32,970 bases of DNA from Acetobacter sp. AN02 (GTDB taxonomy: Bacteria > Pseudomonadota > Alphaproteobacteria > Acetobacterales > Acetobacteraceae). The notes beneath the pieces are model-generated. The model made no database searches, was not told where the DNA came from, and saw nothing but the letters and a program-made list of their open reading frames with translations. The position numbers and the translations under genes were made by a program. Positions within the stretch are counted from its first letter, which is position 1. Each line of letters starts with the position of its first letter. Shown piece by piece: positions 14,737 to 25,026 of this stretch. Location of the stretch: positions 1 to 32,970 of the forward strand of contig NZ_JAJJND010000021.1 of assembly GCF_029759835.1 (NCBI RefSeq), given 5' to 3'.

Positions 14737-14946
14737 TCAGTCCTGCGTCTTTTTTGGCGGAGGACGGCGGAAAAGATCCTCCGGGGTGATGGTTTCGGGA
14801 GGCATGTTCTCCGGCGGCGGCATGGAGTTATGCTTCCGGAAACGGTTGGCAAACCACCCGTTTATCTCCGCCCGCCAGAAGAAGAACGGGATGGCCGGCC
14901 ACACGATAATGCACAGCAGGATGAGAAGGAGCTCGAGCCAGGACAT
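14737..14946 (-). CDS. Small single-pass membrane protein of unknown function
   Basis: 69 residues from the ATG at 14946: one strong N-terminal hydrophobic helix (SWLELLLILLCIIVWPAIPF), an aromatic/basic boundary (FFWRAEINGWFANRFRKHN) and a Pro-rich, charged tail (PPPENMPPETITPEDLF). Topology is probably N-out or signal-anchor with a cytoplasmic tail. A longer frame to 15069 adds Cys-rich residues without membrane character and would cover the pmtA promoter region. It converges on gshB with 12 bases between stops and diverges from pmtA. No function can be assigned. Confidence 0.65.
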   Translation of the reverse strand: MSWLELLLILLCIIVWPAIPFFFWRAEINGWFANRFRKHNSMPPPENMPPETITPEDLFRRPPPKKTQD

Positions 14947-15067
14947 TTTTTCCGTTGCGCTGATTGCCTTGTGAAAATAGAGGAAGGCATGGTGTCTGCC
15001 AAGCAGGGCAAGGTTTTTGCTGCACAGGCATCTTGCCCGGGAAGTCTGCCGGAGGCAGAAAGGACAC

Positions 15068-15808
15068 ATGAGCGAAGTTCTGGACCGTAAGTCGACCCCC
15101 TCAGCGCCCGAGGCCGCCCCTCCGGTCGCAGAGGAAGAAACCGCGCATCAGAGGCCGAAAGTCGCGCTGGACGCGGATGCCGTCCGGGCGGCCTACCGCC
15201 GATGGGCCGCCGTCTACGATACCGTGTTCGGCGGAATCTCGGCATTCGGACGCAAGCGTGCCGTGAGCGCGGTCAACCGCCTGCCCGGCTCGCGGGTGCT
15301 GGAAGTCGGAGTCGGAACCGGCCTCGCCCTGCCGCATTACACACATAACAAACGCATCACCGGGATCGATCTGTCCTCCGACATGCTCAGCCGCGCCCGG
15401 CAGCGCGTACGCCGCGACGGCCTGTCCGGCGTGGATGCGCTCCTGGAAATGGATGCGGAAGAGACGCGGTTCGCCGATAATTCCTTCGATATCGCCGTGG
15501 CGATGTTCGTGGCATCCGTCGTGCCGAATCCGCGCCGCCTTCTGGCCGAACTCAAGCGCGTCGTCTCCCCGGGCGGACATATCCTGTTCGTGAACCATTT
15601 CCAGACACCCGACGGAATCCGCGGCGCAATCGAGCGCGGCATGGCCCGCGCCTCCCACTCGCTCGGATGGCACCCCGATTTTGCCATGGAGGCCCTTCTG
15701 CCGCCGGAAGACCTCTCCCGCGCGATCATCCAGCCGGTCCCCCCGGCAGGGCTGTTCACCCTGGTGACTCTGGAAAACACGGAAGATAAAGCCGAAAAAG
15801 CAGCCTGA
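15068..15808 (+). CDS. pmtA: Phospholipid N-methyltransferase (phosphatidylethanolamine, PmtA-type)
   Basis: 246 residues, class I SAM-dependent methyltransferase. After a ~35-residue Pro/Glu-rich N-terminus come RAAYRRWAAVYDTVFGGI, typical of PmtA, and the SAM motif LEVGVGTGLALPHY, then GIDLSSDML and a later FVNHF segment. The family converts phosphatidylethanolamine stepwise to phosphatidylcholine at the inner membrane, common in alphaproteobacteria including acetic acid bacteria. AAAGGA sits before the ATG at 15068; upstream starts are not supported. The family level is firm; the exact lipid product is inferred. Confidence 0.85.
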   Translation: MSEVLDRKSTPSAPEAAPPVAEEETAHQRPKVALDADAVRAAYRRWAAVYDTVFGGISAFGRKRAVSAVNRLPGSRVLEVGVGTGLALPHYTHNKRITGIDLSSDMLSRARQRVRRDGLSGVDALLEMDAEETRFADNSFDIAVAMFVASVVPNPRRLLAELKRVVSPGGHILFVNHFQTPDGIRGAIERGMARASHSLGWHPDFAMEALLPPEDLSRAIIQPVPPAGLFTLVTLENTEDKAEKAA

Positions 15809-15946: not shown

Positions 15947-17158
15947 ATGACGGGTAAGATCGTTCAGATGTCATCCCCTGCGATGCGTTCCACAAAAACC
16001 GGAGGCGTCGTACCTGCGGTTTACCTCATCCTTTCCCTGCTGGCCGGAACGGCAGGAGCGGGAAGGGGGATCGCCCTCGCCCTGTCCGGCGCCTCCCCAG
16101 CAGATCAGGGCGGTGCCGCCGGTCTGCACGGGCTGGTCATGGTTTGTCTCGTCGCACTCCCCGCCCTGATCGGCGGTTTCGGCGGCCTGCTCCTTCCGTC
16201 CTCCCTCGGACTGCCCGGACTGCGGCTGCCGCGCGTTTCGCTGGCCGGAGCAGGATGCCTGGCCCTCTCAGCTCTTTTGCTTGCCACAGGCGGATCTCCG
16301 CTGGCCTCGGGTCTGATCTGGTGCGCCGGGGTGCTGTGCATGGTCCTCCCCGTCGCGGTGTCCGTCATGGACAGCCGCGCAGCCGCCGGACCGGAGCGCC
16401 CGCCGCTGGATTTCCTCGCATGGTCCCAGATGATCGCAGCCACCGCCCTGCTGCTCTGCATCCCCGCCGCAGCGGGTGAACTCTGCCGCGGCACGGCAGC
16501 GGCGGACATTGCCCGCTCCCTCATGGCCCCTCTGTCCGCAGCGATGATGACCGCCGCGGCAGGCGTGGCCTCTCTCGTTCTGAAATCACGACAGGCACAG
16601 TTTTCCTTCCGCCCGATGGCCGCCGTCATGGGTACGGTGGTGACCGGAAGCGCACTGGCCTGGGTGCATCTGCGGACACAGGGCAGTCTTTCGGATGCTG
16701 CCGTCACGGACAGCCTGATCCTGCGCGCCACGCTCCTCACCGGCGCAGCCTTTGCACTGGTCTGGGGCTATGGCCTGTGGCGGCAGAAACTCCCGCTGAG
16801 CCCCTCAGTGCTGTGGAGCGGCAGCTTTCTGGTCACGCTGCTTGCCGGACAGGCAGGCGGAGAGAGCGCGACACACGCCGTCATCATGAGCGGCACGCTG
16901 TTCGCCCTGTTCGCAGGGCTTTACCTCCAGGCTGAACGTCTGACGGGACAGCCGCTGAAGGGACCGGCCCCGATGACACATGTCGCACTGGTCATGCTGG
17001 GCACGGTCCTGTGCGCTGCAGGCGGCCCCGTGCTGACGATGGCAGGCGGCGCGGCATTCGTCCTTTCCATCCCGGTCGCAGGCCTGGTGCTGTATTCCGT
17101 CTGCCGGGATACAAAAGCCGCCCGTGGTCAGGTCACGCCCCTGAGGGCAGCCCGGTGA
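15947..17158 (+). CDS. Degenerate heme-copper oxidase subunit I-like membrane protein (pseudoenzyme)
   Basis: 403 residues, about 12 hydrophobic segments; true subunit I is ~530. Residues 60-97 (LHGLVMVCLVALPALIGGFG, then LPSSLGLPGLRLPRV) match the helix II-III region of CtaD (HGxxM, PALxGGFGN, GAPDMAFPR). Residues 310-325 (HAVIMSGTLFALFAGLY) match helix X. By this alignment His61 and His310 correspond to the two low-spin heme ligands. Of the CuB/high-spin heme site, HPEVY reads APLSA (194-198), the HH pair reads HL (241-242) and the first His of HFH reads Ala308. It cannot reduce oxygen by the known mechanism. The stop overlaps the GTG of ctaB. The frame is intact and coding-like, so this is not a pseudogene; a role in heme O/A handling is inference only. 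Confidence 0.72.
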   Translation: MTGKIVQMSSPAMRSTKTGGVVPAVYLILSLLAGTAGAGRGIALALSGASPADQGGAAGLHGLVMVCLVALPALIGGFGGLLLPSSLGLPGLRLPRVSLAGAGCLALSALLLATGGSPLASGLIWCAGVLCMVLPVAVSVMDSRAAAGPERPPLDFLAWSQMIAATALLLCIPAAAGELCRGTAAADIARSLMAPLSAAMMTAAAGVASLVLKSRQAQFSFRPMAAVMGTVVTGSALAWVHLRTQGSLSDAAVTDSLILRATLLTGAAFALVWGYGLWRQKLPLSPSVLWSGSFLVTLLAGQAGGESATHAVIMSGTLFALFAGLYLQAERLTGQPLKGPAPMTHVALVMLGTVLCAAGGPVLTMAGGAAFVLSIPVAGLVLYSVCRDTKAARGQVTPLRAAR

Positions 17159-18114
17159 GCGCGTCAGTCACGCAGGCACGCCGGGAAACGCGCCTGCGTT
17201 TTTCCGTAGCCGAAGCCGGAACACAGGCAAGGGACTGGATCGCCCTGCTCAAACCGCGCGTGATCTCGCTGGTGGTCTTCACAGGTGCAACGGGCCTGTT
17301 CCTTGCCCCGGGACATATCGGCATCTGGCGCTCGGCCATCGCCATCCTGTGCATCTGCCTCGCCTCAGGCGCCGCCGGTGCGATCAACATGTGGTATGAC
17401 CGCGATATCGACGCCGTCATGCGGCGTACGATCACACGTCCCGTCCCCGCCGGACGCATCCCCGAGGACGAGGCTCTGGCCTATGGCGTCGGCCTGTCCG
17501 CCCTGTCCGTCGCCCTGATGTGGCTTGCGACCAATACGCTCGCCGCCGGAATTCTCGCCTTCTCGATCTTTTTCTACGCCGTGATCTACACGATGTGGCT
17601 CAAGCGCTCGACGCCGCAGAATATCGTGATCGGCGGCGCGGCAGGTGCATTCCCGCCGATGATCGGCTGGGCCGCGGTCACGGGCTCCATGTCCGTCCTC
17701 CCGGTCGTCCTGTTCCTGATCGTGTTCCTGTGGACCCCGCCGCATTTCTGGTCCCTGTCCCTGTACGCCTGCAAGGATTACGGCCGGGCCGGCATCCCGA
17801 TGCTGCCCGTCGTCCGGGGCGCACGCCACACACGCCGGCAGATCTTCGCCTATACGCCTGTGCTGCTGGCCGTCTCGCTGGTGCCGTCCCTGCTGCATGA
17901 ATGCGGAGCGCTCTACACCGTGGCCGCCGTCGTGCTCGGACTGGGCTTCATGGCCTGCGCCGTGGCCGTCCTGAGGGAGGCGCAGACACAGGACGGCGTC
18001 AGCCTCAACGGAGACAAGGCCGCCCGCCGCTCCTTCCGTTTCTCCCTGCTCTATCTCTCGCTGCTGTTCATGGCCCTCATCGCAGACCATCTCGTGACGC
18101 TGTGGCTGGCATGA
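17155..18114 (+). CDS. ctaB: Heme O synthase (protoheme IX farnesyltransferase)
   Basis: 319 residues, about nine transmembrane helices, UbiA superfamily. Diagnostic segments are LLKPRVISLVVFTGATGL, the prenyl-diphosphate site NMWYDRDIDAVMRRT with following RPVPAG, and HFWSLSLYACKDYGRAGIPM. It farnesylates heme b to heme O for heme-copper oxidases, in this kind of organism probably a bo3 ubiquinol oxidase encoded elsewhere. The start is GTG 17155, overlapping the previous stop (GTGA). The stop overlaps the next ATG (ATGA). The arrangement recalls the alphaproteobacterial ctaD/C-ctaB-coxF operon. cyoE would be an equally valid symbol. Confidence 0.93.
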   Translation: MSASVTQARRETRLRFSVAEAGTQARDWIALLKPRVISLVVFTGATGLFLAPGHIGIWRSAIAILCICLASGAAGAINMWYDRDIDAVMRRTITRPVPAGRIPEDEALAYGVGLSALSVALMWLATNTLAAGILAFSIFFYAVIYTMWLKRSTPQNIVIGGAAGAFPPMIGWAAVTGSMSVLPVVLFLIVFLWTPPHFWSLSLYACKDYGRAGIPMLPVVRGARHTRRQIFAYTPVLLAVSLVPSLLHECGALYTVAAVVLGLGFMACAVAVLREAQTQDGVSLNGDKAARRSFRFSLLYLSLLFMALIADHLVTLWLA

Positions 18115-18254
18115 CAGAAGATCTGACGGAAACGCAGCGTCTGCAGGCCCTGTCGGCCGAGATCGGAAAAAGACAGCGCATGCGGGTCATGGCCCTCACC
18201 GCTGTGCTGCTGAGCCTCGCAGGCGTAATCTTCATCCTCACCCTGATCCGCTGA
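18111..18254 (+). CDS. Small CoxF-like membrane protein, 47 residues
   Basis: Starts at ATG 18111 inside the ctaB stop (ATGA). It has a charged N-terminus (MTEDLTETQRLQALSAEIGK, then RQRMR) and one C-terminal transmembrane helix (VMALTAVLLSLAGVIFILTL) ending IR. Alphaproteobacterial cox operons commonly carry such a short protein after ctaB, ending in a similar hydrophobic T-I/L-(V/I)-R/K motif; its function there is poorly known. The assignment rests on position, size and topology, not on a strong motif. It overlaps the end of the convergent DUF3293 gene by 17 bases. Confidence 0.6.
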   Translation: MTEDLTETQRLQALSAEIGKRQRMRVMALTAVLLSLAGVIFILTLIR

Positions 18255-18648: not shown

Positions 18649-19839
18649 CTACGGCTCCGATGCCTCGCCGTTATCGGCAGACTCCCCCGAACGCACGTCA
18701 CGATTGACCCAGGACGACATCAGAAACCCGAAGCCAAGCATGACGGTCAGCATCGAGGAACCGCCATAGGACACAAGAGGCAAAGGCACACCCCCGACCG
18801 GAATCGCCCCCATCACCATGGACAGATTGACGAGGCAGTACAGAAAGAAATTGACCGAAATCCCCAGCGCCAGCAGCCGCCCGAAACGGTTGCGACTGCG
18901 GATCGCCATGGCCATTCCGCCAAGAATCAGCAGCAGAAGAAGACCCATCACGACAATCCCGCCGACAAACCCCCATTCCTCGGCAATGGTCGTGAAAATG
19001 AAGTCCGTCTGCTTTTCAGGCAGGAAGTTGAGCTGCCCCTGGGTGCCCTGAAGATAGCCCTTGCCCCACATCCCGCCGGAACCCAGCGCGATCTTGGACT
19101 GGATGATGTTATAGCCCGCCCCCAGAGGATCGCTCTCGGGGTGCAGGAAGGTGGTGATCCGGGCCCGCTGATAATCATGCAGATGGGCATAGGCGATCTT
19201 GAGCAGCGCCGGAACGGGCAGACAGAGCAGAACGATCTGCCACAGCCGCATCCCGGCCGCAAAGAACAGCGCCGCCCCGATCCCGCCGATAATCACCGCC
19301 GTCCCCAGATTGGGCTCCTTGAGCACAAGCCCGACCGGAAGAAGCGTCATGACGGCAGGAATGATCAGCCGCAGCGGATTCCCCATCCTGGCGTAGCTGA
19401 TCCGGCTGAACCACGTGGCCAGCATCAGAACCAGCGCAACCTTGGCAAATTCAGAAGGCTGGATCTGCACCCCGCCGACAATGATCCAGCGCTCGGCTCC
19501 CTTGCCCACATGCCCCATACGCAGCACCGCCACGAGCAGCCCGAGAGACGCAAGATAGGTCGGAAAGGCCAGCCGCATCAGCAGCCTGAGCGGAAGCATC
19601 CCGACCGTCACCATCAGGATCAGACCAAAACCGAAGCGCATCGCCTGCGGCCCGGCATAGGGACGGGCAGAACCGCCCCCGGCCGAGCACAGCGCGACAT
19701 ATCCCACACCGGCCAGCGCGCAGATCAGCAGCACATACAGCCAGTTGACCCGCCACAGCCGCGAGGCCAGCGAAAATCCCGGCTCCTCACGCAGGAGACG
19801 TCTGTGAAAGCGCGAACCGGACGGACGTAGAGCAGACAT
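18649..19839 (-). CDS. rodA: Rod shape-determining peptidoglycan glycosyltransferase RodA
   Basis: 396 residues, SEDS family, about ten transmembrane helices. Recognisable segments include GNPLRLIIPAVMTLLPVGLV, LKEPNLGTAVIIG (Lys-Glu-Pro-(N/D)-xGT with the essential acidic residue region), FLPEKQTDFIFTTIAEEWGF and the C-terminal GGVPLPLVSYGGSSML. RodA polymerises lipid II glycan strands during side-wall growth, paired with PBP2. It follows mrdA by 11 bases, the normal pairing. GAGG lies about 10 bases before the ATG. Confidence 0.95.
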   Translation of the reverse strand: MSALRPSGSRFHRRLLREEPGFSLASRLWRVNWLYVLLICALAGVGYVALCSAGGGSARPYAGPQAMRFGFGLILMVTVGMLPLRLLMRLAFPTYLASLGLLVAVLRMGHVGKGAERWIIVGGVQIQPSEFAKVALVLMLATWFSRISYARMGNPLRLIIPAVMTLLPVGLVLKEPNLGTAVIIGGIGAALFFAAGMRLWQIVLLCLPVPALLKIAYAHLHDYQRARITTFLHPESDPLGAGYNIIQSKIALGSGGMWGKGYLQGTQGQLNFLPEKQTDFIFTTIAEEWGFVGGIVVMGLLLLLILGGMAMAIRSRNRFGRLLALGISVNFFLYCLVNLSMVMGAIPVGGVPLPLVSYGGSSMLTVMLGFGFLMSSWVNRDVRSGESADNGEASEP

Positions 19840-19850
19840 GATCGCAGACC

Positions 19851-21794
19851 TCAGAGCGCATCCGCCACGGTCTGACCGGGCGGCGTCCTGCGATTGGCGG
19901 GGTCACGCAGCAGAGCATCCGTCATGATGTTGCGGGCCAGCGGCGCCGCAAACTCGGCCCCCGCATTGCCATGCTCGATCACGACAGACACCGCATAGCG
20001 CGGCGCATCATACGGCGCGAAACAGATGAACAGCGCGTGCGGACGATACTCCCAGGGCAGACGCGCGGAATTGAAATGCCCGCTCTCACGCAGGGCACGG
20101 GAGACACGCCGGACCTGAGCCGAACCGGTCTTGCCCGCCATCTCGATCCCGGGGATGGGCAGACGGGCCTTGGGCGCGGTCCCGTGCGCCTCGTTGACCA
20201 CGGCAAACATGCCCTCACGAATGGCCTTGAACGCCTGCTCAGGCATGTCCAGAACCGGCCAGTGCTCCGGATCGGATTCCGGCGTCAGCTTGCCGTTGAT
20301 GGCACGGACCAGATGCGGCCCGATGGCCCGCCCGGTCGCGATGCGGGAGGTGTAGGTGGCAAGCTGGAGCGGCGTCACCTGCACGAAGCCCTGACCGATC
20401 CCACTGACGATCGTGTCACCGCCGTTCCAGTGATGATTGTGCTTCTGCCGCCATTCCGGCGTGGGAATCAGCCCCGCCCGGGTATGCGGCAGCTCGATAT
20501 CCAGCTTCGTGCCAAGACCAAGCTCATGAGAGGTCGCGGCAATACGGTCCATGCCGATACGACGGGCCACCTCATAGAAATAGACATCGCAGGAATATTT
20601 CAGACCAAGATGCAGATTGACCGAACCATGCCCGTGCCGCGCCCAGCAGTGGAAGCGGGCGCCGCCCACATCAATGTAGCCACGGCAGACAAAACAGTCG
20701 GCAGGAGAGATCATCTTATTCTGCAGCGCGGCCATCGCCACGGCAGGCTTGAAGGTCGAACCCGGAGGATAGACACCCGCAACCGCCTTGTTGATCAGCG
20801 GCGTCCGCTCGTCATTGGTCCAGGCAATCCACTGCGCCTTGCTCACACCGCTGTCGAACAGGGACGGATCAAAGGACGGCGTGCTGACCATCGCCAGAAC
20901 CTCGCCGTTGCGGCAGTCCATCACAACGGCAGAGGCTGCCGTATCCCCGATCCGGTTCTGCACGGCCTGCTGCAGCCCGGCATCCAGAGACAGCGTGATC
21001 TCCCGGCCCGGCGTGCCGTCCACACGGTCCAGCTCCGCCAGAACACGCCCGACGGAATTCACCTCCATCTCCACGGCCCCGGCCTCACCGCGCAGAAGAT
21101 CATCCTGGCTCTGCTCGATCCCCGAACGGCCCATCCGCATGCCCGGCAGCGCCAGCAGCGCGGATCGCGCAACATCCTGCTCGTTGGGCGGCGCGACATA
21201 ACCGACGATATGCGCGGTCAGCGGCCCCTCGGGATAGGTGCGGGTGGTGCCGACATCAATCAGAACCCCGGGCAGCCCCGGAGCATTGAGCTCGATCCGC
21301 GCCATCTCGTTCCAGGACAGAAACTCCCGGAGCATGACAGGAACGAACTTGCGCTGATGCCGCATCTCACGGGCAATACGGGTGCGGTCATGATCCTCCA
21401 GCGGCACGATGGCGGCAAACCGCTCGATCGTCCCGGGAACATCCGTCGTCTCCTCCGGCAGTAAAAGTGCCCGCCAGTTGGTCTGATTGCTGGCAAGCGC
21501 CTTGCCGAACCGGTCAATGATCCGCCCGCGTGGCGGAGCCAGCAGCCGCTTGCTGATCTGATTGCGCGTCGCAAGCTTCGCGAAATGCTCGCCGCTGGTG
21601 ATCTGCAGATCATACAGCTTGCGCCCGAGTAGACCCAGAGTGGCCGTCTGCGCCGCCATCAGCAGCAGGGCACGCCGCGTAAAGACACCCCGCCCCCGGT
21701 CACGAAGCTCCTGATCCCGGTTCTGACGCTTCCCCTGTCTCCCCCTGTGGCGCCCCCCGGAACGCCCGAATATCTTCCTGCCTGAAAATTTCAT
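19851..21794 (-). CDS. mrdA: Penicillin-binding protein 2, elongasome transpeptidase
   Basis: 647 residues. After a basic N-terminus and one membrane helix (about 40-60) comes the dimerisation/pedestal region with APPRGRIIDRFGKALASN (87-103). The transpeptidase domain follows, with the catalytic Ser346 in STFK, SCD at 401-403 and KTG at 555-557. It crosslinks peptidoglycan in the periplasm with RodA. Order mreD-mrdA-rodA on one strand, with 15 and 11 bases between genes, shows a single operon. The unusually basic start (~40 residues rich in Arg, Gly, Gln) is longer than in many homologues. Confidence 0.95.
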   Translation of the reverse strand: MKFSGRKIFGRSGGRHRGRQGKRQNRDQELRDRGRGVFTRRALLLMAAQTATLGLLGRKLYDLQITSGEHFAKLATRNQISKRLLAPPRGRIIDRFGKALASNQTNWRALLLPEETTDVPGTIERFAAIVPLEDHDRTRIAREMRHQRKFVPVMLREFLSWNEMARIELNAPGLPGVLIDVGTTRTYPEGPLTAHIVGYVAPPNEQDVARSALLALPGMRMGRSGIEQSQDDLLRGEAGAVEMEVNSVGRVLAELDRVDGTPGREITLSLDAGLQQAVQNRIGDTAASAVVMDCRNGEVLAMVSTPSFDPSLFDSGVSKAQWIAWTNDERTPLINKAVAGVYPPGSTFKPAVAMAALQNKMISPADCFVCRGYIDVGGARFHCWARHGHGSVNLHLGLKYSCDVYFYEVARRIGMDRIAATSHELGLGTKLDIELPHTRAGLIPTPEWRQKHNHHWNGGDTIVSGIGQGFVQVTPLQLATYTSRIATGRAIGPHLVRAINGKLTPESDPEHWPVLDMPEQAFKAIREGMFAVVNEAHGTAPKARLPIPGIEMAGKTGSAQVRRVSRALRESGHFNSARLPWEYRPHALFICFAPYDAPRYAVSVVIEHGNAGAEFAAPLARNIMTDALLRDPANRRTPPGQTVADAL

Positions 21795-21809
21795 CTCATG
21801 CCGCCGGGA

Positions 21810-22418
21810 TCAGTATCTCTGGTCCGGCACGTATTCCGCCGGTCTCTGCCTGCCCTTCGGATCCTGCCCGCTGAGCCACCGGCACACGTGAATGCTCCCG
21901 GCCGCAAGCGGCGGATAAAGACCGGCCGCCAGCAGCGTCTCGAACAGGGACGGAGACAGCGGAAGAATGCTCAGGGACAGGGCCGATGTCACAAACCACT
22001 GGAACAGACAGGCACACAGGGCGCAGAAGGCAAACACGATCCACAGCGCCGCAAAGCTCATGCGCATGAAGCTGAAGCGGAACCGCATGGCCGCCCCGTG
22101 CAGAAGCAGCAGCGTCAGCGCGCTCACGCCCGGCGGGCTGAAACCGATCAGATCCAGCAGAAGACCCAGCATGAACACACCCGGCGGCGGCATGGCCTGC
22201 GGCATCCAGACCGACCAGAAAAACACCGAGGCCAGTACAAACGAGGGAAGAAGCGCTGTCACCGCGGGCAGACCGGTCGGCGCGGACAGGAACAGCACGA
22301 CCAGACAGATGAACATGCCCGGAGCCAGACGCCGCGCCCAGCCGTCGACACGCTGTATGAATGCAGGACGCGGAGACAGCCCGGTCTCCCGGAAGCCCGC
22401 AAGAGGATCGCCGCTCAT
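21810..22418 (-). CDS. mreD: Rod shape-determining protein MreD
   Basis: 202 residues with five or six hydrophobic segments. Typical MreD features are the LPSFVLASVFFWSVWMPQAM stretch and GVFMLGLLLDLIGFSPPGVSALTLLL, where the Asp in LLLD and the following PxG are conserved. It is an inner-membrane scaffold linking MreC, PBP2 and RodA. It is placed 12 bases after mreC with GAGAGG as ribosome site. An alternative overlapping frame 21796-22434 on the same strand is rejected for lack of membrane-protein character. Confidence 0.88.
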   Translation of the reverse strand: MSGDPLAGFRETGLSPRPAFIQRVDGWARRLAPGMFICLVVLFLSAPTGLPAVTALLPSFVLASVFFWSVWMPQAMPPPGVFMLGLLLDLIGFSPPGVSALTLLLLHGAAMRFRFSFMRMSFAALWIVFAFCALCACLFQWFVTSALSLSILPLSPSLFETLLAAGLYPPLAAGSIHVCRWLSGQDPKGRQRPAEYVPDQRY

Positions 22419-22430
22419 ACGCGCCGCCTC

Positions 22431-23357
22431 TCACCCGCCACCCGCAGGGGCAAACGGCCCGGGCGGCATCCCCGCCCGCAGGGACGGACCCGTCCGGGGA
22501 GAGGGAATATAGGGAATCCGGCCCGGCGCGTCAGGAGGCTCAATCGTCGTCGTCCCGAAATTGAAGATGCGCAGGATACGGATATGATCGAGATGTGCAT
22601 AGGGCACGACAACCGGCTGGCCCGGACGCAGATAATGCACCGTGCCGACAGGCAGACCCGCAGGCAGCAGACTGATCTGCCCGCCCGTCACGACTCGCTC
22701 TCCTTCTGCGGGATAATGATCCTGCGGATAGTACATCAGCCGCGGCGTCGGACTGCGATCCCCCGTCATGATGGCAGACGTGCCGGATTTTTCCATGGTC
22801 ACGGGAATCCGGCTGGCCACGTCATCAATCAGCAGAACCCGCGCGGAATGCTCCCCGACCTCCGTCACGCGCCCCGCAAACCCGTCAGCCGCCAGAGCAA
22901 TATTGCCAAGCCTGATCCCGCTCGAAGGCCCGGCCCCGATCAGAACCGCATGACCATAAACCCCCCCGGCATCCGCCACCACGCGCCCGGTGACAAAAGA
23001 CGGAGCCGGATCAGGCATCCAGTGCAGATTGTGCTTGAGCGTCTGGTTTTCCTGGGCAAGGGAAAGCGCGACATCATACCAGCCGCGCAGCTTCTCGTTC
23101 TCAGCCCGCAGCGCCGCATTTTCTCCGGCAAGACGCACCGCGCCCCGCAGCTGCTGCCCCGCATCGGACAGAACCATGCCGGGCTGCGCGGTCAGACTGC
23201 GGAAAGGCGTCATCAGATCGGCAAAGAGCATCCGCCCCTTGTCCGCCAGTTTCCTGTCCGCCTGACCAAGCAGTATGGTGGCAATGGCAACAAGGATCGT
23301 CAGCGGAAGGACCAGCTTCTCAAGCGCCTGCCTGTTCTGGATCGACAGACGGATCAT
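22431..23357 (-). CDS. mreC: Rod shape-determining protein MreC
   Basis: 308 residues: one N-terminal membrane helix (about 16-31, LVLPLTILVAIATILLG), a coiled coil (about 75-107, VRLAGENAALRAENEKLRGW), then the periplasmic double beta-barrel (VTGRVVADAGGVYGHAVLIG, GFAGRVTEVGEHSARVLLIDD, VVTGGQISLLPAGLPVGTV). It organises the elongation complex in the periplasm. The C-terminal ~40 residues are Pro/Gly-rich and probably disordered. It is downstream of mreB across a 291-base gap. Confidence 0.94.
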   Translation of the reverse strand: MIRLSIQNRQALEKLVLPLTILVAIATILLGQADRKLADKGRMLFADLMTPFRSLTAQPGMVLSDAGQQLRGAVRLAGENAALRAENEKLRGWYDVALSLAQENQTLKHNLHWMPDPAPSFVTGRVVADAGGVYGHAVLIGAGPSSGIRLGNIALAADGFAGRVTEVGEHSARVLLIDDVASRIPVTMEKSGTSAIMTGDRSPTPRLMYYPQDHYPAEGERVVTGGQISLLPAGLPVGTVHYLRPGQPVVVPYAHLDHIRILRIFNFGTTTIEPPDAPGRIPYIPSPRTGPSLRAGMPPGPFAPAGGG

Positions 23358-23648
23358 ACGCAGCCCCCGGAACGGACAGACAGGGTTCGGCGCCCTTCCG
23401 GCAGGAAAACAGCCTCCGCAGAGGAAAGGAAGGCGCAGGCTGGGATCTGAATTCGGTTCATCACTGCCCTGGTTATGCCAGATGCGCGGAGATCGGCTCT
23501 GTCCTGACGATATCGATAAAGGGAGACCGGGACAGCCTCCTCCGGTGCCCGCTGTTCTGACAGAAAACCGCCCCGGGGCACCATGAATTTTTTTTCAGAA
23601 AAGCACCAGGCCCGCCCGGAAACAGAAGCGGCGCCCGGCACACGGCAC
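23358..23648. other. mreB-mreC intergenic region, no convincing gene
   Basis: A 291-base gap, long for this operon. A 95-codon GTG-initiated open frame on the minus strand (23641-23354) ends in an ATGA overlap with mreC but has weak third-position G/C bias and no recognisable protein. A T-rich tract (23589-23595) and GC-rich self-complementary GCCCCGGGGC near 23573-23582 are present. The region may separate mreB expression from mreCD or carry a secondary promoter; no clear -35/-10 pair was found. Confidence 0.45.

Positions 23649-25026
<1,378 letters not shown>

Follow-up and report, generated by a model that had tools for sequence, protein, structure and literature searches.

A ctaD relic beside the heme O synthase gene of acetic acid bacteria keeps the low-spin heme histidine positions after loss of the oxygen-reducing site

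We analysed a stretch of 32,970 nucleotides from Acetobacter sp. AN02 (the window), in which a degenerate relative of ctaD, the gene for oxidase subunit I, lies directly before ctaB, the gene for heme O synthase. The gene is already known from the literature; the new point is a heme site, predicted from the ligand positions, that has been retained across at least 21 genera. The two positions that carry the low-spin heme ligands in subunit I are histidine in every full-length orthologue that we compared, and the oxygen-reducing site has been lost. The relic is probably a selected, heme-binding, non-catalytic protein. Given that much, the prospects of a role in handling heme O together with CtaB are about evenly balanced. 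The best explanation that we can offer, with confidence slightly short of even, is that the relic is a partner of CtaB which binds a b- or o-type heme and takes up, holds or regulates the heme O destined for the quinol oxidase.

Results

The initial annotation had placed the motifs HGLVM at residues 61-65, PALIGGFGG at 72-80, LPGLRLPR at 89-96 and HAVIMSGTLFALFAGLY at 310-326 of the relic, and had read its catalytic motifs as altered to APLSA, HL and Ala308. The motifs stand in the translation where it had put them, with APLSA at 194-198, WVHL at 239-242 and Ala308-Thr-His310, and the assignment to the oxidase subunit I family was borne out by an above-chance phmmer match and by the predicted fold. 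Among all PDB chains the top phmmer match of the relic is R. sphaeroides subunit I (E 1.4e-6). In this alignment H61 falls on the helix II histidine and H310 on the second histidine of helix X, which we take, as textbook knowledge, to be the low-spin heme ligands in oxidases; the helix X piece of the alignment, taken alone, scores only 4.8 bits. The Pfam family PF00115 (COX1) matches the relic with E 1.1e-7; the score of 31.6 bits narrowly misses the curated cut-off of 34.8. At E 0.001 or better the family matches 62 of 68 orthologues, leaving six without a match. It is the sole Pfam match, and the SURF1 domain PF02104 gave none in the relic and its relatives. Against the CtaD equivalog TIGR02891 the relic scores 32.7 bits, far under the cut-off of 670.75, and so falls outside that equivalog.

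Structure prediction, which had been suggested as a check on this assignment, gave the subunit I fold. The AlphaFold2 model, made from an alignment of 68 sequences, has a mean pLDDT of 89.9 and twelve helices. A Foldseek search with the model ranks oxidase subunit I entries first (best E 1.3e-8), and comparison with subunit I by VIA aligns 371 residues with a Z of 31.4 and an rmsd of 3.6. By prediction, then, the relic folds as a 12-helix heme-copper oxidase subunit I. On the phmmer, Foldseek and VIA matches we rejected a chance resemblance to subunit I.

Table 1. Positions of the relic, its predicted heme ligand codons and the neighbouring features in the window
Feature	Position	Strand	Remarks
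110-aa frame	14737-15069	-	opposite the gshB-pmtA gap; no Pfam match
pmtA-like methyltransferase	15101..15808	+	start codon provisional; conserved left neighbour, upstream and outside the relic
ctaD-like gene (relic)	15947..17158	+	403-aa, 12-helix (predicted) subunit I relic; of the ligands, keeps the low-spin heme pair only
codon of His61	16127..16129	+	helix II low-spin heme ligand position; H in 75/75 full-length orthologues; coordinate computed from 15947
codon of His310	16874..16876	+	helix X low-spin heme ligand position; H in 75/75 full-length orthologues; coordinate computed from 15947
GTGA overlap of relic stop and ctaB start	17155..17158	+	stop TGA 17156-17158, start GTG 17155-17157
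ctaB, heme O synthase (UbiA family)	17155..18114	+	NF003349, TIGR01473, PF01040
47-aa protein	18111..18254	+	probably one membrane helix; overlaps the ctaB stop (ATGA)
cell-shape cluster	18649-24695	-	FtsW/RodA family, penicillin-binding protein, MreC, MreB; right of the locus, opposite strand

The ligand positions were compared by aligning 74 distinct relics with 11 true CtaD sequences; the relic of genome G056 (L139) was added later, bringing the orthologues to 75. The initial annotation had claimed H61 and H310 as the low-spin ligands and had proposed to check their conservation: both are histidine in all 75. Neither outcome that it had named as refuting its claim, a predicted structure unlike subunit I or orthologues without these histidines, came about. 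Among the 74 distinct relics five of 386 well-filled columns are invariant, namely H61, W159, W239, H310 and Y326. The L139 relic keeps H61, W159, G206, W239 and H310 and has phenylalanine at Y326. It was unmatched by the query search and was reached through its place beside ctaB; as it keeps both histidines, we rejected the view that their conservation is a by-product of similarity-based sampling. The branch lengths within the relic clade sum to 50.3 substitutions per column, with zero change at H61 or H310.

The loss of the oxygen-reducing site, the other half of the original claim, is borne out: the catalytic positions are kept in none to two of the 75 orthologues with the exception of the H241 position. 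The first CuB ligand position is histidine in 0, the second in 17 and the third in 2 of them. The active-site tyrosine, the K-channel lysine and each of the two propionate arginines are kept in 0/75, and the high-spin heme histidine in one orthologue (L082); all four CuB and high-spin histidines occur together in none. The AN02 relic has A194, H241 and L242 at the CuB sites, A198 in place of the tyrosine, A308 in place of the high-spin histidine and F269 in place of the K-channel lysine. H241, the first histidine of the old HH pair, had been named along with His61 and His310 for the conservation check; with histidine in 17 of 75 it did not hold up, and we rejected it as a functional ligand. 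Judged from sequence, the relic is thus without the features that mark an active heme-copper oxidase: three CuB histidines with the cross-linked tyrosine, the high-spin histidine and the K-channel lysine.

In aa3 oxidases an arginine contacts the formyl group of heme a, and its equivalent is kept in 4/75 orthologues. The propionate arginine pair and the loops holding the propionates are deleted in 72 of 74 relics, so that the heme affinity of the relic could be low. CtaD-conserved columns are best preserved in relic helices V, II and X (0.43, 0.41 and 0.37) and least in helices VIII, VII, IV, III and VI (0.16-0.26).

No relative came up when genome contigs were scanned with the single query sequence; a scan with an alignment of the Acetobacter relatives gave 25 named loci. 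The short set was picked by a frame length below 500 aa, together with L131-L136 from a profile search, and the ligands were not a criterion; L005 was trimmed to its last 440 aa. Left out of the counts were L010 and L068 (cut by contig ends), L102 and L127 (broken frame), L025 (a CtaD fragment) and duplicates, with L102 retained for the ctaB linkage and dN/dS. The relic has a match in 47 of 49 Acetobacter genomes, and in 46 the frame reaches at least 419 aa. Among the matches listed for 150 genomes sampled across the family it occurs, by our own reading, in at least 33 genomes from at least 21 genera; the rest of those listed have frames as long as full-length oxidase subunits or run into a contig end.

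All 74 relics fall on one branch of the tree (SH-aLRT 100), beside true CtaD, in a quick tree with long branches where the grouping could be helped by long-branch attraction. The early-branching relics of G071 (L136:5456-7033) and G013 (L135:4086-5531) are longer and more CtaD-like; they are already without the catalytic ligands, keep both low-spin histidines and are useful intermediates. One relic-bearing genome carries a second, full-length heme-copper oxidase subunit I of 577 aa (L105, G159:C34), with the ligand motifs present as judged by eye.

The CtaB of the window scores 333.3 bits with NF003349 (cut-off 246) and 326.1 bits with TIGR01473 (cut-off 210.3), and matches PF01040. The description of the relic as an open frame coupled to ctaB is confirmed by the 4-nt stop/start overlap (Table 1). 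Relic and ctaB share a strand in all 75 loci, with the ctaB start codon between -60 and +120 nt from the relic stop, and in 61 of these the two genes have an NTGA stop/start overlap. A pmtA-like gene lies upstream of the relic in every relic locus inspected, and gshB lies further upstream, at a distance of up to 3 kb (L077), except in the short loci L038, L049, L058 and L120. A small ORF of fitting size follows ctaB in 73 of 74 loci, or in 72 by eye, L014 being unlike the others.

The 47-aa protein that this ORF encodes in the window had no family match in Pfam and NCBIfam. Its relatives also follow ctaB in the full oxidase operons of two family members (L137 and L138), which show the ancestral order pmtA-ctaC-ctaD-ctaB-small ORF-ctaE-surf1; gshB is visible in L137 but not in L138. 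The relic therefore still occupies the old site of ctaD and descends, in place, from the subunit I gene of an operon for aa3-type cytochrome c oxidase, which acetic acid bacteria have otherwise lost. The gene ctaC has been lost on one side and ctaE and surf1 on the other; ctaD, ctaB and the small ORF remain, the 47-aa protein being the third product that the old oxidase operon has kept.

Two related genomes, G001 and G053, are natural deletions. In both the pmtA-like gene adjoins ctaB, and neither ctaD nor a relic intervenes (L140:4640-6986 and L142:3620-5603), and the 10-11 kb around ctaB holds no subunit I of any kind; other subunit I profile matches lie elsewhere in the genome, and SURF1 is absent. 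These genomes have ctaB without the relic, so ctaB can do without it, and a quinol oxidase probably can as well. True CtaD stands beside ctaB, cut by contig ends, in G038, G064, G110 and G019, and the stretch examined in G007, G012 and G031, where ctaB is at the contig end, contains no subunit I. In G077 a full-length subunit I of 598 aa, which scores better by the CtaD profile, lies ~2.3 kb downstream of ctaB (L143:7830-9623) in an order unlike that of the other loci.

Relic and ctaB are also absent together. The reduced Acetobacter genomes G186 and G187 (1.5-1.7 Mb) are without the relic, ctaB and any COX1 match; all three are likewise absent from G070, and none was seen in the incomplete genome G034. 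G066 is without relic and ctaB, and its single protein of the COX1 family measures 833 aa. G029 and G116 show only weak ctaB matches and each carry a single COX1-family protein, of 785-794 aa and by its size perhaps a nitric oxide reductase.

SURF1 is absent from all 34 relic-bearing genomes tested (20 + 14) and present in 6/6 genomes with full-length CtaD; its absence may go back to one ancestral loss. E. coli bo3 assembles without SURF1. CtaG_Cox11 is absent from 20/20 genomes, which is a weak point since the search covered relic-bearing genomes only. CtaA is present in 11 of the 24 genomes tested; among the 20 relic-bearing ones 11 have it and 9 do not, so heme A is not required in the latter, and we rejected it as a necessary cofactor of the relic. 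A second, stronger COX2 match occurs elsewhere in the genome in 5 of 20 relic-bearing genomes. The AN02 genome has a single COX2 match, beside CyoB, and none beside the relic, where pmtA lies directly upstream instead; the CtaC gene that accompanies subunit I in a cytochrome c oxidase complex is thus missing from the relic locus.

The median dN/dS of the relic is 0.127, and that of ctaB 0.050 for the same pairs (Nei-Gojobori; 95 of 103 close pairs, with dS between 0.05 and 1.5), in a set of pairs that share branches, and so are not independent, and of which two involve the broken L102. The nearest relative of the relic, in G185, has 43% identity over the matched part, and the CtaB of G185 has 84%. 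By these estimates the relic is under purifying selection, yet evolving faster than its neighbour ctaB; dN/dS, also suggested as a check in the initial annotation, thus points to selection on the protein.

The only broken relic frame seen is that of A. papayae (G175; L102:4142-4960 and L127:2905-4234), which is split over three frames with a longest piece of 273 aa, and 46 of the 47 matched genomes of the genus have an unbroken full-length frame. The break could be a sequencing or draft-assembly error rather than real decay, because gshB likewise looks split in two other drafts (L115 and L124). On the median dN/dS and this sole broken frame, we rejected a pseudogene reading of the relic.

Discussion

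In A. pasteurianus, Matsutani et al. (2014) reportedly found ctaB and ctaA to be functional and held that ctaD had lost its function through accumulated mutations. The part of PMC6915089 that concerns these genes has ctaB and ctaA as still functional, and according to a passage of PMC5158111 both ctaD (APT_01775) and ctaB (APT_01774) are conserved among three strains of A. pasteurianus. The relevant section of PMC10715153, citing Matsutani et al. 2014, describes a "deranged COX1-like protein", or ctaD relic, beside ctaB in Acetobacter as being without all cofactor-binding residues, and proposes that it serves structurally, to stabilise CtaB. The predicted ligand pair in 75 of 75 orthologues contradicts the loss of every such residue. 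According to a table footnote in PMC4596401, which again refers to Matsutani et al. 2014, A. pasteurianus has a cytochrome c oxidase; the sequences analysed here do not support one for the relic. In the open-access literature we found no paper reporting the conserved low-spin ligands, which does not prove that there is none, and nothing useful on precedent for the relic or on its essentiality. The central proposal of the initial annotation, a protein that has shed catalysis and kept a bis-His pocket, is supported by the sequences, and better so than the published description; the specific new functions that it went on to suggest are candidates.

We infer from these observations that the relic binds a heme, that the heme is B or O, and that the protein has a handover or regulatory role. 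The relic would keep one metal site, the bis-His low-spin site, with the heme-copper oxygen centre and the K-channel lysine gone. It would be a membrane heme protein, co-translated with the heme O synthase CtaB, and would bind heme B or O through H61 and H310. Its place beside CtaB would let it take over, hold or regulate heme O fresh from synthesis, which would then be delivered to the bo3/ba3 quinol oxidase; alternatively, it might report the heme O level to CtaB. Either activity, receiving and holding heme O or reporting its level, could be imagined by analogy with CtaA-CtaB and Surf1, for a protein made along with CtaB in bacteria that have no SURF1 and often no CtaA. In the parts of the literature that treat these proteins, CtaA-CtaB complexes presumably hand on heme O (PMC9145763), Surf1 is a heme-binding helper of subunit I (PMC9145763, PMC5249081), and heme insertion into cytochrome c oxidase is called unresolved (PMC5249081).

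Readings as a heme O carrier or an assembly factor fit because the linkage to ctaB is fixed; that linkage is inherited from the old operon and by itself is no proof of joint function. Counted against a heme O partner are the fast evolution, the deletion of the arginines and loops, G001 and G053, and the broken A. papayae copy. A more specific course of events, in which the oxygen-reducing enzyme became a dedicated heme carrier from CtaB to the quinol oxidase and replaced the lost SURF1 helper, seems rather unlikely to us.

It is unlikely that the relic binds no heme now and that its fold is kept to stabilise CtaB or its insertion, as suggested for it in the section of PMC10715153 cited above. 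Such a role would agree with the fixed adjacency to and overlap with ctaB, with the CtaB-stabilising function proposed there and with the preservation of the predicted fold. It leaves unexplained why the low-spin ligands are invariant while other ligand positions drift, and its published premise of complete cofactor-residue loss fails for these sequences.

More unlikely still is a stand-alone b-type cytochrome, acting as a membrane electron carrier or as a redox, oxygen or NO sensor unrelated to heme O supply. Retention of the bis-His site with loss of the high-spin site would suit it, as would the invariance of W159, W239 and Y326 in 74/74 relics (with phenylalanine for Y326 in L139), and the second COX2 match in five of the 20 genomes could belong to another oxidase or donor. 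A free-standing electron carrier would have no visible partner in the locus, however, with the only COX2 match of AN02 beside CyoB and no CtaC by the relic; and the gene is always beside ctaB in the 75 loci and is absent jointly with ctaB from reduced genomes.

A dying gene, that is a decaying ctaD kept open solely as a leader for the coupled translation of ctaB, we regard as quite improbable. A leader requires neither the preserved 12-helix model nor the invariant histidine, tryptophan and tyrosine columns; ctaB stands without the relic in G001 and G053; and the low median dN/dS and the full-length frames throughout most of the genus also speak against decay. In favour are the NTGA overlap in 61 loci, the fast divergence with one frame-broken copy, and a dN/dS above that of ctaB. 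Least probable of all is a CyoB assembly factor, a subunit I mimic that would bind quinol oxidase subunits or chaperones with heme as a structural element, for although the predicted subunit I fold and the absence of SURF1 and CtaG_Cox11 from relic-bearing genomes would suit it, other subunit I matches occur in G001 and G053, where no relic lies beside ctaB.

The reading that we prefer, a heme-binding partner of CtaB, differs from the published view for acetic acid bacteria, in which ctaD is a deranged leftover: the relic is more probably a working heme-binding protein, as far as prediction goes. If this is true, a respiratory enzyme would, unusually, have been pared down to a protein that binds heme, and the much-studied subunit I fold would occur in nature in a form with a single heme. 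It makes a concrete prediction in industrially important bacteria, namely a bis-His heme in the relic and an effect on heme O supply. Other "degenerate" respiratory genes would be worth checking site by site.

Comparison with known systems

The relic shares with CtaD/CoxA (PF00115, TIGR02891) homology, the predicted 12-helix fold, both low-spin histidines and the operon position, pmtA-[ctaC]-ctaD-ctaB-small ORF. Unlike CtaD/CoxA it has no CuB ligand set, active-site tyrosine, high-spin ligand or K-channel lysine; the propionate arginine loop is deleted, no ctaC or ctaE lies beside it, and it scores far under the CtaD cut-off. The "deranged COX1-like protein" of PMC10715153 is the same gene by genus, position and neighbour, and the ligand description in that section differs from ours. 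To Surf1, as the passages cited above describe it, the likeness is in proposed role only, that of a helper in the membrane which binds heme on its way from heme synthase to oxidase; Surf1 belongs to another family, is reported there to bind heme A and is absent from the relic-bearing genomes tested. CtaA acting with CtaB, again as portrayed in the part of PMC9145763 cited, resembles the relic likewise in proposed role only, as a multi-helix heme protein that would take heme O from CtaB; it differs in being an enzyme of another family, encoded by a separate gene that is found in 11 of 20 relic-bearing genomes.
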